Virus record (IMG/VR): IMGVR_UViG_3300022689_000130
Span: 1-64,000 of that record
Source: a virus
DNA length: 64,000 nt
Reading direction: 5' to 3' (one strand)
Shown: in pieces, positions 28,002 to 37,652 of the stretch
How positions within the stretch are numbered: the stretch's first letter is position 1
How the letters are laid out: every line of letters starts with the position of its first letter
The notes under the pieces: generated by a model
Seen by the model: only the letters and a program-made list of their open reading frames with translations
Database searches by the model: none
Told to the model about the DNA's origin: nothing
Translations under genes and position numbers: made by a program

Positions 28002-29378
28002 TTATTCAGATTTTCGAAGTATAGCCTTAAGCTTGTCGGCACTGTTAATCGCTTTCTCTGTGTTATTACTCTTTTCAGTTGTATTGGCGCGGCGCTTGCT
28101 AAGTTTGTCGTATAGTGCATTGCTAGTTGCGGTTTCAGAATCATCTTCGTCTTCGTCAAGGTCAGTGATTCTCAAGCTATCAATATCGAACGCCAGATCG
28201 AGCTTTTGTCCCACGCCCGAACTTGAACGTGTTTTCATGAATTGCACTTGCACCCGCCCGCGCTCCCGCATCGCACGACTAGAAAAGATACCGATTAGGT
28301 TGTCTGCTGTATTGATTTTACTGATACCACCAGCAATGTGGCTGTGATCAAACTCTACTTCGTCAACAGCGCCACGATTAAGTTGGCTTGCTGTTGCAAA
28401 CAGATAGTCGCCCTCAATAGACAGGTTGCGCAGTTCTTCCGAAACGTGCTTGTCCTTGAGAAATACATTATCTGCGCTAACCTTGGCTTTGGCTGGCGTC
28501 ATAAGGTCTAGATAGTCCACAAGTATAGCATCAACTTTGAGGTCATGCTGAATTTGAAATTCTTTGACATATGCTCTAATATCGTTGACATCAATGCCGC
28601 TGGGCATCTGGATGATTTGCAGCTTGCCTGACTTTTTGGCCTTCATGCTAACTTTGAGCGCGACATCTTCAATGTTCTTGAACAGCTCTTTTGTACTCTT
28701 GCCCGTGAGCATACTGTCCAGACGCATAGAGCAGAGATCTTCACTAAGTTCTAGGCTGATGTAGAGAACATTGAACCCTTTTTCAACCCAGTTAAGGGCA
28801 AGGTTTTGAAGGAAAAGTGATTTACCTGCACCACTACCACCAGCAAAGATGTTTAGCTCTCCGCGGTTAAAGCCACCGTATAGATGGAAGTCAATGTCGC
28901 GCCAGCCCGTGCTAGTGCCGCCCTTTTTATCCATGATACGCTGAAGGCGTTCTGCAGGATTTTCCCAATAGTTTGTGCCAAGTTCTTTTGCAAGACCAAT
29001 TTGTACGGCGTTCTTGATTAAGTCTTCAACTGCACCATATTCCTGTTTCTCAAGCATATCAGTTGACTTGAGGATTGCTGCTTCGATTGCTTTATGCCTA
29101 CAAAAGCGTTCAAAGTCATTGAGAAACCATTTGCGGTGATCCTCACTCGCCCGGCCGATATCTTGTAACTCTAGTCCAGTTTTCGCCTTAATTTGCTTGA
29201 GCTCAGGAACCGAACCATATTCGTCAGCATACTCCCGAACAAACTTGACACTATCACGTATGCTACGATCAAAAAAATCTTCATTCAAAATGTTGTTACA
29301 ACGCACGAACAGTTCATGATCGCTCACCAAAAATTCCAAGTAAAGCTGTTGTAATTCTGTATTATACTCTTCAGCCAT
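28002..29378 (-). CDS. 41: Replicative DNA helicase, gp41 (DnaB family)
   Basis: It unwinds DNA ahead of the phage polymerase. Residues about 1-140 form the N-terminal collar domain. The RecA-type domain has Walker A GGSGAGKSLFLQNLA near residue 180, Walker B with LVDYLDLM, and HIAGGISKINTADN near the C-terminal part (sensor and Arg-finger region, Arg in SSRAMRERGR). 458 residues is normal for T4-like gp41. The primase gene lies 300 bases upstream on the same strand, so the primosome is encoded as a unit. No intein is present. Confidence 0.93.
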   Translation of the reverse strand: MAEEYNTELQQLYLEFLVSDHELFVRCNNILNEDFFDRSIRDSVKFVREYADEYGSVPELKQIKAKTGLELQDIGRASEDHRKWFLNDFERFCRHKAIEAAILKSTDMLEKQEYGAVEDLIKNAVQIGLAKELGTNYWENPAERLQRIMDKKGGTSTGWRDIDFHLYGGFNRGELNIFAGGSGAGKSLFLQNLALNWVEKGFNVLYISLELSEDLCSMRLDSMLTGKSTKELFKNIEDVALKVSMKAKKSGKLQIIQMPSGIDVNDIRAYVKEFQIQHDLKVDAILVDYLDLMTPAKAKVSADNVFLKDKHVSEELRNLSIEGDYLFATASQLNRGAVDEVEFDHSHIAGGISKINTADNLIGIFSSRAMRERGRVQVQFMKTRSSSGVGQKLDLAFDIDSLRITDLDEDEDDSETATSNALYDKLSKRRANTTEKSNNTEKAINSADKLKAILRKSE

Positions 29379-29686: not shown

Positions 29687-30697
29687 TTACTTCAAAAATT
29701 TCTTTGACAAGACCCTAATCCTTGTTGGGTTATCAGTAGCACTTGAAAGTGCCGACTTGAGCACAAATGATCTGCCATATGCTTGTGCTGCTGCATTTGC
29801 ATCCTTGTGTTCGAGTAACCACTCTGGAAAGCTTACAAACCAGCCTTGTTTAATGGCTGGCTCTATCAATGCACGGCCTGGGCGATCACCATCAGGAAGC
29901 AAAACGGTCTTTCGCCTAAGCTGGTTGATCAAGCTTGCTTGTTCATCACTAAGGCTGTTACTTCCCAATGCTACTGCGTCAATACTTATAGCATCGAAAT
30001 CACCTTCCACTACGACCACAGCATTTCGGTCAGGTATTTGTCGATCAAGATTGAATACATAGTGAGGTGGCTTACGCACCAGATATTTGGGCGTTCCTTC
30101 TGGTGGATTACCAATAAATCTAGCATTATGTCCGACCACTTTTCCTGCATAACGATATGGCAAAATGATGCGCTTGCGATATCTGAAGTCAGCACTGGTA
30201 TATGCCCAATCATGCCAGTGCAGTAAATCTCTGTCGCTCAACATCAACAATGCTTTTTCAAAGTTGGCGTGCATTTGGGCAGGCGCGACTTCAGTCAAAA
30301 ATTCTATCCCGTCTGGTAATGCTACTGTAGGCCATTTAGGCTCAAACGGTGGTGGCTCAGCAGCAACAGGATTGAGCAACCGTGCTGTTTCTTCTTCGCG
30401 TAGTAGCTCTAAGCTTGCTCGCTGTAGGTCAGCTTCCTCACATCCAAATTGCTTGAGCAACTTCTTGACTTTACCGCCCATGTGACTGCCTGCTTTCCAT
30501 CCAGTCTTGTAGCCACAATTGAAGCAGTGATATACCCACTCATCATCACTAAAATGAAACCCGCCACGTCGCTTGCGGTCAGGTCTGCTTTCTCCATTGA
30601 TTACGCACACAGGACAGTTTCCAGAAACCCAGCCTGTACTGTTCTGGCGCCAGTCTGAAGGCAGACGTGATCGTACGAAATCTACGAAAAAATGCAT
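29687..30697 (-). CDS. 61: DNA primase, gp61
   Basis: It makes RNA primers for lagging-strand synthesis with gp41. A zinc ribbon opens the protein (CPVC ... CFNCG, residues about 28-60), followed by a TOPRIM domain with VVVVEGDFDAISIDA (catalytic Glu) and PDGDRPG (DxD-type metal site). I start at ATG 30697, giving 336 residues; the longer TTG frame overlaps the promoter. The -10 box TATACT ends seven bases before this ATG, so the transcript should begin at the start codon. No Shine-Dalgarno sequence is seen. Confidence 0.9.
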   Translation of the reverse strand: MHFFVDFVRSRLPSDWRQNSTGWVSGNCPVCVINGESRPDRKRRGGFHFSDDEWVYHCFNCGYKTGWKAGSHMGGKVKKLLKQFGCEEADLQRASLELLREEETARLLNPVAAEPPPFEPKWPTVALPDGIEFLTEVAPAQMHANFEKALLMLSDRDLLHWHDWAYTSADFRYRKRIILPYRYAGKVVGHNARFIGNPPEGTPKYLVRKPPHYVFNLDRQIPDRNAVVVVEGDFDAISIDAVALGSNSLSDEQASLINQLRRKTVLLPDGDRPGRALIEPAIKQGWFVSFPEWLLEHKDANAAAQAYGRSFVLKSALSSATDNPTRIRVLSKKFLK

Positions 30698-30704
30698 TGT
30701 TACA

Positions 30705-30733
30705 AGTATATTATAATCAAATGCTTCAGTCAA
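30705..30733 (-). promoter_or_regulatory. Sigma70-like promoter of the primase gene
   Basis: TTGACT (30733-30728), 17 bases, TATACT (30710-30705), seven bases, ATG 30697. Confidence 0.65.
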
Positions 30734-30875: not shown

Positions 30876-31313
30876 TCAAATATTAAGACTAATTGTCGTA
30901 GTATCTAATACTTCTAACACAAAACGTGGCTTGCTACGGATGGTCTGCGCTAGGATAATGCGTCCGCGATCGTCTGTCACCTCGATGACTAGGCTGTATA
31001 GCCCAGGCTCAAATGCGCTGTTAGCTGCGGCATTAATTACCAAGCTAGCTGCACCGTCTGTGAGCGGATCAGCTACCATTGTGCCGTTCCACACTTCCAC
31101 GTTTTCAGTGTTGTAGATACGTGCGGTGATAGTTTGGCCAATAGTGAGATATGCTCGCTGACGATGATCGCGGAATGCAAAGTATAGAATTGAATCCCAG
31201 CCTTTTGTGATCTGTATAGGATCTGGGTTATCGCTACCTACACGATATGTACCGCTACGTTGGTCATTGACAGGACTGGCAATGTATGGTGTATAATAAG
31301 CGTAAACTGTCAT
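30876..31313 (-). CDS. Probable virion structural protein with Ig-like beta pattern
   Basis: About 145 residues from ATG 31313 (MTVYAYYTPYIASPVN). Alternating short strands (ITARIYNTENVEVWNG; GLYSLVIEVTDDRGR) read like a single Ig-like or tail accessory domain. A GATAAATA box stands five bases before this ATG with no ribosome-binding site, so a leaderless late mRNA is predicted. The gene is divergent from the plus-strand gene at 31361. Confidence 0.55.
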   Translation of the reverse strand: MTVYAYYTPYIASPVNDQRSGTYRVGSDNPDPIQITKGWDSILYFAFRDHRQRAYLTIGQTITARIYNTENVEVWNGTMVADPLTDGAASLVINAAANSAFEPGLYSLVIEVTDDRGRIILAQTIRSKPRFVLEVLDTTTISLNI

Positions 31314-31318
31314 ACCAA

Positions 31319-31326
31319 TATTTATC
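31319..31326 (-). promoter_or_regulatory. Late promoter abutting the start codon (minus)
   Basis: GATAAATA, TTGGT, ATG 31313. Confidence 0.65.
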
Positions 31327-31347
31327 AATCTGTCAAGATGTCTTGTG

Positions 31348-31355
31348 CATAAATA
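31348..31355 (+). promoter_or_regulatory. Late promoter abutting the start codon (plus)
   Basis: CATAAATA, TCCGC, ATG 31361. It forms a divergent pair with the late box at 31319-31326. Confidence 0.65.
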
Positions 31356-31360
31356 TCCGC

Positions 31361-31741
31361 ATGGCAGAAAACAATAAACTAGAAAAATTGCTTGACGAGT
31401 ATCCTTTTTTGACCGTGGCAGTATATGGCAAAAATGAATATCTTGGCATTATACAAAATCAGGACGGGAACCTGATCTCAATGTATGTATTTGAAGAAAT
31501 CAAAACACCAGAGCTTCGTAGGAAGTTCTTAGAGTATGGGGCTGAGTGGTGGTGGGAAACAAATCGTTTGATTCCGATTAACATTATTCTTGGAAAACGA
31601 TTTGAGCCATTTAAGAATTGCTTACGTACATTCAATATCAAGGATTTTGAGATCAAATACGGACCTAGTGTATGTCTCAAAGACATTATGCAGAAGCGCG
31701 TAAAAAGAAAAAACGTTCAGCTAATTAGAAAAATAGATTAG
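31361..31741 (+). CDS. Conserved-looking T4-like phage protein, plus strand
   Basis: 126 residues. Start MAENNKLEKLLDEYPFLTVA, then YGKNEYLGIIQNQDG, GAEWWWETNRLIPINI and VCLKDIMQKRVKRK. The sequence is rich in aromatic residues and looks like a well-kept alpha/beta domain; I recall similar unnamed proteins in marine T4-like phages. It is one of four plus-strand genes in the window and is driven by its own late box with a five-base gap to the ATG. Its end overlaps the convergent dioxygenase-like gene by four bases. Confidence 0.65.
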   Translation: MAENNKLEKLLDEYPFLTVAVYGKNEYLGIIQNQDGNLISMYVFEEIKTPELRRKFLEYGAEWWWETNRLIPINIILGKRFEPFKNCLRTFNIKDFEIKYGPSVCLKDIMQKRVKRKNVQLIRKID

Positions 31742-32436
31742 ACGTGTCCTCCGAACTGGGCGGTCTCATATTGCATCACGTCATTGACGACTCGTCGATC
31801 AATGTAGTTCATCAGTAACATGTATCTTTTGGTGGCAGTTATATTTGGCATTTGGCTATGTAATGTTCGTGCATCCCACATCAACATATCACCAAAATGA
31901 ACCACTGGCTGAATTGCCTCTTGTATAAACTGCTCGGTATATTCGCCACGATAACAACGATCGATCTCCCAAACACGTTTATGACTTCCTGGCAAAAATG
32001 CAGTAGAGCCGCTGTTTTCCGTAAATTCGTGCAGCGGTATAGCAATCTGTATGCCGAGAAGTCGCCGGTCACGATTCCAGGGTGCATGACGATGTGGTGT
32101 ATCTACATGAGGGCGTGGGCCGGAACTTAGCGGTGTTAATACGCTGCAATCTGCGTGATAGAAAACAGGGTCGTCCATAAACTCTTCCACAAACTGATCA
32201 GTTACTTCTCTAACATTAGAAATTTGATTATGATCATTCAGCGGCAGAGTCCAGTAGTTTGACCACTCAACGTTTTCATGGTATGTGGCATAGTAATTTC
32301 CGTCGCGGTCGTGTCCTCGCTGTGGAATGTCCCAGCTAATCTTGGTATGAGAGATGTCATACAATAACATCTGATCGAATTTTTGTCTGAACACTGTAAA
32401 CCCTTGTTCGACCATATTTTTGTGATACTCAGCCAT
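31738..32436 (-). CDS. Phytanoyl-CoA dioxygenase-like 2-oxoglutarate/Fe(II) oxygenase
   Basis: 232 residues. The facial triad is visible: HVDTPHRHAPW gives H-x-D, and FGDMLMWDARTLHSQMPN gives the distal His. GSTAFLPGSHKRVWE is the typical 'nG.t..ipGSH' loop of the PhyH family. An Arg able to bind 2-oxoglutarate follows (KRYMLLMNYIDRR). PhyH-like genes are frequent in marine cyanophages, but the substrate is unknown. The upstream short frame overlaps its ATG. Confidence 0.82.
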   Translation of the reverse strand: MAEYHKNMVEQGFTVFRQKFDQMLLYDISHTKISWDIPQRGHDRDGNYYATYHENVEWSNYWTLPLNDHNQISNVREVTDQFVEEFMDDPVFYHADCSVLTPLSSGPRPHVDTPHRHAPWNRDRRLLGIQIAIPLHEFTENSGSTAFLPGSHKRVWEIDRCYRGEYTEQFIQEAIQPVVHFGDMLMWDARTLHSQMPNITATKRYMLLMNYIDRRVVNDVMQYETAQFGGHV

Positions 32437-32491: not shown

Positions 32492-32569
32492 TTACTGTTG
32501 CGCAACCTTACGACATTTACGAGCATACGATCGATAATCTTTAGCATCTTTAGCTGTTATTAAAATCAC
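32492..32569 (-). CDS. Short basic frame with in-frame stop and continuation
   Basis: GTG 32569 overlaps the mini-DnaE stop. The frame encodes 25 residues (AKDAKDYRSYARKCRKVAQQ at its end) and stops at TAA, but the same frame continues as KWANSELTVNELLEEIKRYG up to the next gene's ATG. This looks like one small gene broken by a stop, or two tiny peptides. Confidence 0.35.
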   Translation of the reverse strand: MILITAKDAKDYRSYARKCRKVAQQ

Positions 32570-33147
32570 AAGCTATCGTTTTGTATCTGTTCAACAAGCA
32601 AATTCATATGTAATTTCACTGACAATGCATAAGCCGTAGCATGAGAACGTTTGAACGCATAAGTTCCATCTTTTGGCCGTGTCCAAACATGTTGCATCAC
32701 ATAGTCCCAATCCTTGCCTATTAAATGTCGTTTGGCTGGGCGAATCATAGCTAGCACGGCTGCTAGCTGTGGCAGGCTTCTTGGCTTCATCTGTTTGCAT
32801 ATATCATGATGCCCGCTCATATGAAATACCATGTCACAGAAGTCCTTTTCTTCAAGCAACTCCCAAACAGGCTCGCGCTCTAGCAATTCGTTCTGATGTG
32901 CTTCGTCACGAACGCCCTTGTAAATACTTAAGTTGAGCACATCAATCTTAAAGTACCCCATGTCTTCAGCTTCTTGATAGTCGATGGTGCAACGCCCAGT
33001 GAATGGATCAGATGGCACGTCGTGAAAATAGACACCGGTGTTGTGTTTTCGGTCGCCATTCTTAGCGACTACATGCGGGAATAGTTTGAGAACCTGATCT
33101 CTGTCAGGCACGTCAATGTCAATGTCAGTTACTGTCTTCATAGCCAT
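32566..33147 (-). CDS. Miniature DnaE-like (C-family polymerase palm/fingers) protein
   Basis: 193 residues that follow the core of bacterial DNA polymerase III alpha in order. VTDIDIDVPDRDQVLKLF resembles the PDIDxDF catalytic Asp motif. TIDYQEAEDMGYFKIDVLNL matches the 'D.eda...GL.K.DfLGL' strand with the third Asp. VFHMSGHHDICKQMKPRSLP and AVLAMIRPAKR match 'vFQles.gm...l....P' and 'ALyRPGP'. FKRSHATAYALSV matches 'FnKSHaaaYal'. PHP, thumb-finger spacers and OB domains are missing. The role is unknown: a vestigial polymerase, replication regulator or inhibitor are possible. It sits in the replication cluster. Confidence 0.65.
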   Translation of the reverse strand: MAMKTVTDIDIDVPDRDQVLKLFPHVVAKNGDRKHNTGVYFHDVPSDPFTGRCTIDYQEAEDMGYFKIDVLNLSIYKGVRDEAHQNELLEREPVWELLEEKDFCDMVFHMSGHHDICKQMKPRSLPQLAAVLAMIRPAKRHLIGKDWDYVMQHVWTRPKDGTYAFKRSHATAYALSVKLHMNLLVEQIQNDSL

Positions 33148-36092: not shown

Positions 36093-37616
36093 CTAAAACC
36101 TATTATCTTTCCAATCTACCTTTTTCATTGAAAATGGATATTGTGCCTTTCGATAATATTTTTTACGTTCAGTTAAATGACGTTTTGAAAATTTAGCATT
36201 GCTACAAAGATCGATAATTCGAACGAAGTCTTTGTCTTTTGCGCGGCGCAAGCCACGCCCTATACTTTGGATCACGCGAACGAAGCTCTTGCCTGGTTCG
36301 ATAAGCATGAGGTTGAAGATACGCGGCACGTTGATGCCCACGGCTGCAACACCGTAGGTAGCGATGATGATCTTGTCGTTATTGCTTGAGATGTCTTTGT
36401 AGTGCTCACGGCGCTCTTCGTTTTTCATCTCACCACTGATGAACACAGTGCGGTCTTCTGGCAGTCGTTCAAGCAAGCCTTTGCCTGACTTAACACGGTC
36501 AACCAACACAAGAGTATTGCCGCTCTCAGCCGCTGCCAAGATCAACTTTGCCATGTAGTCCAATCTATCGCTATCTGTGGTGAGGTATGACAACTCTGTC
36601 TGATAGTTGTCGTAATGGACACTGTCTTGCATCTGTATGATGTCGACGTGGCAGTTTGCAAGTATGCCGTCTGCCTGTAGTGTCTGCGCTGCTAGTTCGC
36701 CCACTGTGGGTCCAACGCCTACCTTGAGGCTAACCGCAGCATGTTCTTCTGGCGGCACTGTTCCTGTTAGACCCCATCTAATTGGTATGTTGCGGAACGG
36801 TCCAATCAGCATTTTGCGCAAAATTTCAGCTTGTGCCCCGTGACACTCATCAACAATCACAGCCATAACACCACGTGTGAAGTCCTCTAGGCTCATGTCG
36901 CTCTTGCCGCTCTTGTGATTCTTCTGGATCACTTCCAAACTTTGCCAAGTGCAGATGGTATGAGTGCGGTCGAGCTCTTTGCGGTCTCCGTAATACACCC
37001 CGACGTCTAGGCCAAGGTTCTTGTAATCGTCTTCTGTCTGTGTGACGAGGCCTTTGTTGGGCACAATGACGATTGTGCGGGCGCCGCCATCCAAGCCAGT
37101 AGCCATCTTATACATCACCAGCTTCTCGTCCGTGAGACTGCGCTGAACAAGGTCGCTCAGCGCAGCCGTTACCAACGTTTTTCCGGCGCCGGTCCCTACC
37201 TCCTGCACACCAACTTGATTTTCAATAAACCGATTTACAATATTCAGCTGGTAGTCTCGCAGTATGATAGGCTCGCCTGCAACAGGATGGCCTTCAGGCC
37301 ATACGCGATCGCTGAAATGATCGACATCGATTGGTTGTAGGTCGATGTCGTATCTTATGCGGTTGTCTGTCAGAGACACTTCATATCCCTCGTCAACTAG
37401 AACAGGGAGAATGTCTTCAAGTAGATTGACGTATGTTTTGCCGCCTATAGCGAAGAAGTTGATCTTGCCGTCCCAACGGCCCATTCGATAAGCGGGTGTG
37501 TGCCTGGCGTATGGCAAAATAAAACTAAACTTGTCATGTAACTTTCTTCTAGTAGATGTGCTGAGACCGTGAATTTTGCAATTCACTTCATCGAGCAGTT
37601 CGATTTTTGCTTGCAT
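36093..37616 (-). CDS. uvsW: Recombination helicase UvsW
   Basis: It is a superfamily 2 helicase that processes R-loops and recombination branches. Walker A GTGAGKTLVTAALSDL lies near residue 155, DECH box VDECHGAQ near 258, LTGTVP motif III after it, and the C-terminal helicase motifs include QSIGRGLRRAKD near 465. The N-terminal portion (RHTPAYRMGRWDGKINFF) is the UvsW DNA-recognition domain. The start is ATG 37616 (507 residues); the -10 TATTAT ends seven bases before it and no Shine-Dalgarno sequence is seen, so it is predicted to be leaderless. Confidence 0.93.
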   Translation of the reverse strand: MQAKIELLDEVNCKIHGLSTSTRRKLHDKFSFILPYARHTPAYRMGRWDGKINFFAIGGKTYVNLLEDILPVLVDEGYEVSLTDNRIRYDIDLQPIDVDHFSDRVWPEGHPVAGEPIILRDYQLNIVNRFIENQVGVQEVGTGAGKTLVTAALSDLVQRSLTDEKLVMYKMATGLDGGARTIVIVPNKGLVTQTEDDYKNLGLDVGVYYGDRKELDRTHTICTWQSLEVIQKNHKSGKSDMSLEDFTRGVMAVIVDECHGAQAEILRKMLIGPFRNIPIRWGLTGTVPPEEHAAVSLKVGVGPTVGELAAQTLQADGILANCHVDIIQMQDSVHYDNYQTELSYLTTDSDRLDYMAKLILAAAESGNTLVLVDRVKSGKGLLERLPEDRTVFISGEMKNEERREHYKDISSNNDKIIIATYGVAAVGINVPRIFNLMLIEPGKSFVRVIQSIGRGLRRAKDKDFVRIIDLCSNAKFSKRHLTERKKYYRKAQYPFSMKKVDWKDNRF

Positions 37617-37623
37617 GTTGATA

Positions 37624-37652
37624 ATAATACACTTTTTGTCTAAGAATGTCAA
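37624..37652 (-). promoter_or_regulatory. Sigma70-like promoter of uvsW
   Basis: TTGACA (37652-37647), 17 bases, TATTAT (37629-37624), seven bases, ATG 37616. Confidence 0.7.

Follow-up and report, generated by a model that had tools for sequence, protein, structure and literature searches.

The gene at positions 32566 to 33147 (minus strand) of the window, the 64,000-nucleotide stretch of viral DNA analysed here, encodes, with a probability of roughly 0.78, the C-terminal half of a minimal DnaE-type (C-family) DNA polymerase made of two chains. We refer to its product as the C-half and to the partner found in related phages as the N-half. The assignment draws on the open reading frame, on a phage family match and on a predicted model with its fold matches.

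Sequence relationships of the C-half

The open reading frame described in the earlier note is present on the minus strand and encodes 193 residues, or 191 residues if translation begins at a second ATG at 33141. The second ATG forms an ATGA overlap with the stop of a short open reading frame upstream and is the likely start. The product matches the phage family phrog_11778, which is labelled DNA polymerase, with an E-value of 6.8e-61, residues 2 to 188 aligning with positions 2 to 195 of the 197-position profile. It also matches phrog_405, a family of full-length phage DNA polymerases with a profile of 1190 positions (E 1.1e-7). Similarity to cellular DnaE is marginal when judged from sequence alone. 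A PDB search with the single C-half sequence gave no hit, a PDB profile search gave DnaE1 as the best match (E 0.017), and hhalign against E. coli DnaE returned a probability of 12.6% (E 0.0023) over residues 541 to 642. The Pfam DNA_pol3_finger profile scored 14.8 bits, below its cut-off of 22. The profile match to C-family polymerases anticipated in the earlier note was therefore obtained with the two phage families and only marginally with the cellular enzymes. Several lines of evidence place the kinship of the C-half with C-family polymerases above chance. Of nine sequence pairs, dS was computable for three, which had dN/dS ratios of 0.09, 0.11 and 0.15. C-halves also occur on 11 contigs (L277-L287) filed as bacterial or archaeal MAGs, which are probably phage contigs binned by mistake.

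A split enzyme of this kind has been described. According to passages of a 2021 article in Viruses (PMC7824862), jumbo phages of group 2.2 possess, in addition to a family B polymerase, a minimal Pol III alpha that is specific to phages. The same passages describe it as split between an N-terminal NTP-binding protein and a C-terminal Mg- and template-binding protein, whose genes lie far apart and whose products likely reconstitute the enzyme. Excerpts of two other papers note CBB_328 as a truncated Pol III alpha (PMC5259590) and a Pol III alpha in Atu_ph07 (PMC6102473). We take the published split enzyme to be phrog_11778 plus phrog_11127. As far as the passages describe the group 2.2 system, the window gene shares with it both the C-terminal family and the kind of phage, and it is an additional member of the split Pol III alpha already published. 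The earlier note had regarded a C-family core as unexpected in a T4-like phage, a view overtaken by these passages of 2021. Beyond these passages, the present work maps both halves onto DnaE, identifies the invariant residues, counts how often the halves co-occur, links the N-half gene to the clamp-loader gene, and finds a pair in a phage below jumbo size. In the open-licence literature, consulted mostly as titles and the beginnings of abstracts, we found no experimental test of the pair.

Predicted folds and tiling on DnaE

It is the predicted fold that decides how the C-half relates to DnaE. The AlphaFold input comprised the window protein and 71 IMG/VR homologues; these 72 sequences remained after thinning (51 of 65 non-redundant C-halves derived from 79, 20 of a further 26, and the window protein). 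The resulting model has a pLDDT of 92.1 and a pTM of 0.82. As the earlier note had foreseen, it overlays well on DnaE. VIA-align superposed 186 of its 191 residues on M. tuberculosis DnaE1 at 3.3 Å with a Z-score of 9.6, followed by PolC (Z 9.2) and E. coli DnaE (Z 8.7). The model covers residues 397 to 784 of E. coli DnaE with 184 aligned residues, and 188 of its residues span 416 to 808 of M. tuberculosis DnaE1. The first 15 rows are all C-family (Z 9.6 to 6.1). They comprise DnaE, PolC and entries with no more than 'DNA polymerase' as their title, whose alignments fall at PolC-like positions; the next, unrelated row has a Z-score of 3.4. In Foldseek, rows 1 to 16 are likewise DnaE, PolC or entries titled 'DNA polymerase'; the best E-value is 3.1e-3 and no row reaches 0.001.

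To name the parts of the model we used DnaE domain limits that we assume to be correct. By these limits, the modelled C-half comprises the catalytic palm strands and the fingers core, and almost nothing of the thumb remains. E. coli DnaE carries PHP, thumb, clamp-binding and OB domains. The PHP, clamp-binding and OB domains and most of the thumb are absent from the 193-residue chain, so that the loss of large DnaE regions reported in the earlier note is borne out. The fold and the invariant residues D6, D8 and D67 together predict that a Pol-beta-type palm with three metal-binding aspartates is present. The palm catalytic strands, the aspartate triad and the fingers core are thus what the C-half shares with the bacterial enzymes of E. 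coli and M. tuberculosis (DnaE1).

The motifs named in the earlier note (DIDID, KIDVLNL, VFH...RPAK and FKRSHATAYAL) lie where it had placed them. DIDID (residues 6 to 10; 33112 to 33126, minus strand) aligns with D401, D403 and D405 of E. coli DnaE, and KxD (K65 and D67; 32941 to 32949, minus strand) with K553 and D555. D6, D8 and D67 fall on D401, D403 and D555, which we take to be the catalytic residues of E. coli DnaE. In the fingers, RPxK (R134 to K137; 32731 to 32742, minus strand) is aligned by hhalign to the DnaE RPG motif, and KxxHxxxY (K164 to Y171; 32629 to 32652, minus strand) is aligned in the PDB profile search to DnaE FNKSHSAAYAL. Eleven residues are invariant in the 72 aligned C-halves: D6, D8, D10, K65, D67, R134, P135, K137, K164, H167 and Y171. 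DxDxD, KxDx[LM], RPxK and HxxxY were all found in 79 of 79 further IMG/VR C-halves, a count biased in favour of the motifs because these sequences were collected via conserved patterns.

The nucleotide-binding segment of the palm (GRGS; from residue 361 onward in E. coli DnaE) is absent from the C-half chain. The C-half would therefore be part of a C-family enzyme and not an enzyme by itself. In relatives, the GRGSS motif is found in a separate protein of about 175 residues, the N-half (phrog_11127). The N-half of phage CBB is CBB_328, with 172 residues and the motif GLGRGSS; it matches phrog_11127 (E 1.7e-87) and PF07733 (E 2.1e-8). GRG[ST] is present in all 75 N-halves that were extracted from 80 loci, the other five loci being left unextracted. 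An N-half from contig L054 was modelled with an alignment of 61 of 70 non-redundant N-halves and gave a pLDDT of 93.5. Residues 79 to 178 of this model align to DnaE1 306-413 and to E. coli DnaE 279-393; structure rows 1 to 15 are all C-family (Z 11.8 to 7.3) and the next row has a Z-score of 2.4. Residues 1 to 78 (L054:6001-6234), also confident in the model, lie outside the DnaE matches.

The two models tile on DnaE, leaving two residues uncovered between them on DnaE1 and three on the E. coli enzyme. By sequence, the N-half matches E. coli residues 323 to 395 (E 6.3e-6) and the C-half residues 541 to 642, the same order as by structure. In the models, the split point falls within the palm and separates the GS helix from the DxD strand, and either half by itself should be inactive. 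The suggestion of the earlier note that the gene is a miniature DnaE in a T4-like phage holds in that the product is a reduced C-family palm-plus-fingers module; it does not hold for a whole polymerase, as the GRGS segment is encoded in a separate gene in relatives.

Genomic context and co-occurrence of the halves

Matches to UvsX, SSB, UvsW, primase, helicase and terminase in the window record place this phage among the T4-like phages. Several of these genes surround the C-half, and their recurrence was counted over 38 C-half loci, some partial and some near-duplicates. A DnaG-type primase lies at 29687 to 30733 (minus strand; phrog_47, E 3.3e-33; matched in 33 of the 38 loci) and a DnaB/gp41-type replicative helicase at 28002 to 29378 (minus strand; phrog_19, E 6.3e-70; 31 loci). 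Upstream, in the same replication cluster, a UvsW-type helicase occupies 36093 to 37652 (minus strand; 43% to RaK2 UvsW; phrog_16, E 6.8e-66; 28 loci). After the C-half gene, a small convergent gene of phrog_11637 lies at 31286 to 31741 (plus strand; E 1.3e-33; 34 loci). Between it and the C-half, the gene at 31738 to 32436 (minus strand) shows a weak 2OG-Fe(II) oxygenase match (phrog_81, E 7.8e-5), seen in six of the 38 loci, all of them closest relatives. The C-halves of XacN1 and CM1 lack these neighbours inside the 10 kb fetched on each side.

No N-half was found in the 144,664-base window record with a relative's protein, PF07733, phrog_11127, or two profiles run over six frames. A clamp-loader gene was not detected in this record either. 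In nine phages (Phosso, Atu_ph07, Paride, SCTP-2, XacN1, Vibrio phage 2.275.O, RaK2, 121Q and CBB), the N-half gene is located upstream of the clamp-loader gene or the corresponding AAA/P-loop gene, at a distance of 0.7 to 3.3 kb. In Escherichia phage 121Q, the two halves are encoded by genes 56 and 16. Since the clamp loader is undetected in the window record as well, the N-half region probably lies outside this fragment, and the absence of the N-half is probably a matter of missing sequence. PF00136 gave no match to a family B polymerase in the record, and that gene too may lie outside the fragment; for the window phage, its presence rests on relatives and on excerpts of PMC5259590 and PMC7824862. 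A match at 110,223 to 110,648 to a 548-residue single-chain DnaE (E 0.007) was set aside as chance, since the open reading frame has no DnaE motifs.

Among the phage records listed with a C-half, 60 of 63 were also listed with an N-half; these records include duplicate deposits and near-identical phages and are not independent, and the count leaves PP728206 and OQ508957 unsettled. The underlying phage-record searches counted 64, 65, 87 and 63 records, of which 60 were listed in each case. The three without a listed N-half are Slicko01, Slickus01 and PP728206 (109,507 bases). In Alishewanella phage Slicko01, the N-half was detected by profile (E 3.2e-19). The published system, as far as the passages of PMC7824862 go, is one of jumbo phages, whereas the pair is found here also in this circular 141-kb record, which falls short of jumbo size and in which about 11 kb separate the two halves. 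PQ571274 has an N-half-like match (58% covered, E 2e-3) and no listed C-half.

Fragments are poorly informative on co-occurrence. Among 26 IMG/VR contigs with a C-half, two carry an N-half and one a single-chain DnaE, and the same numbers were obtained for 11 larger C-half contigs, a set that shares G004 with the 26. Two of the three contigs above 200 kb among these 11 (222 and 280 kb) have no N-half; a clamp loader was not detected in these two contigs either. Conversely, 18 N-half contigs, picked among the larger of 80, include eight with a C-half, among them six of the seven above 200 kb. One 359-kb N-half contig gave no C-half match at E-values up to 10; it speaks against a strict pairing of the halves, although it too may be a fragment. 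In G032 and G035, the N-half, GroES and the clamp loader lie together within about 3.2 kb.

Related forms of DnaE were compared with the phage pair. E. coli DnaE has 1160 residues in a single chain, whereas the phage enzyme would comprise two chains with about 365 residues in all. Single-chain DnaE-like proteins in G011 and G052 (open frames of 560 and 563 residues) also have a C-family core. They are one chain without a PHP domain and are co-encoded with a C-half in both contigs. The G011 protein, of 548 residues, has GS, DxDxD, KxD and RP motifs, and its gene (L136:133-1779, minus strand) directly adjoins a helicase-like open reading frame; the G052 gene lies near 83453-84112. In cyanobacteria, the DnaE gene is likewise in two pieces, cut elsewhere, whose products are joined by a split intein. 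Unlike these, neither phage half shows an obvious intein extension in its sequence.

A proposed two-chain active site and its alternatives

In the mechanism we propose, the C-half would supply the three aspartates that bind metal, together with the fingers for holding template and nucleotide, and the N-half would supply the helix with the GRGSS nucleotide-binding motif. The halves would bind each other without peptide splicing and form one active site across their interface, and the heterodimer would copy a DNA template. Processive synthesis is doubtful because nearly all of the thumb and the domains that bind clamp and exonuclease are missing. Bacillus DnaE extends RNA primers made by primase. 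Tentatively, an obligate two-chain enzyme of about 365 residues might be a dedicated second replicase beside the T4-type family B enzyme, for example in RNA-primer extension ahead of a hand-over to the family B enzyme, a role suggested by the position of the C-half near primase and helicase genes and of the N-half near the clamp loader. Also speculatively, it could be a primer-extending or repair polymerase working beside gp43.

The GRGS segment bears on two other readings of the gene. The C-half does have three metal ligands and the fingers core, as a stand-alone 193-residue miniature polymerase would need. However, it lacks the GRGS helix of the palm, which relatives encode in a separate, conserved and co-occurring gene whose product lies adjacent on DnaE. 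On these grounds we rejected a whole miniature polymerase, and we consider the stand-alone reading very improbable. A chain without GRGS cannot bind the incoming nucleotide as DnaE does, and the DnaE interaction domains are mostly gone from it, which would also suit a non-catalytic regulator, either a palm/fingers mimic that binds host Pol III to block or remodel it, or a structural component of the phage replisome. A decoy need not keep the aspartates and the K/R/H finger residues, yet these are invariant in the 72 C-halves and their motifs recur in the 79 others; 60 of the 63 listed records also have the other half of the active site, and hosts of phages with a C-half range from Agrobacterium to Klebsiella and Pseudomonas. 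A regulator is thus unlikely, and blocking of host Pol III, which the earlier note had offered, is disfavoured by a catalytic triad kept in every homologue examined and by the co-occurring partner.

A split nucleotidyltransferase could instead use this active site for work other than templated DNA synthesis, such as end addition or nucleotide transfer to another substrate. C-family palms share the Pol-beta nucleotidyltransferase fold, according to passages of PMC7824862, and ordinary processive synthesis is made less likely by the loss of the thumb. Such an enzyme is nevertheless quite improbable, given that the fingers, which in DnaE hold template and nucleotide, are retained and that the genes adjoin those for primase, helicase and clamp loader. 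We therefore favour the two-chain C-family polymerase, and the residue-level map and the gene pairs described here make a biochemical test of such a split polymerase direct.

If the pair is active, it would show that a small part of the bacterial replicase suffices for catalysis and that two proteins can share one polymerase active site. An active pair would also be relevant to the question why phages with a T4-type polymerase keep a bacterial-type enzyme too. Should the second-replicase reading be true, the pair would be, to our knowledge, the smallest C-family polymerase, and a living model of a pre-DnaE core.
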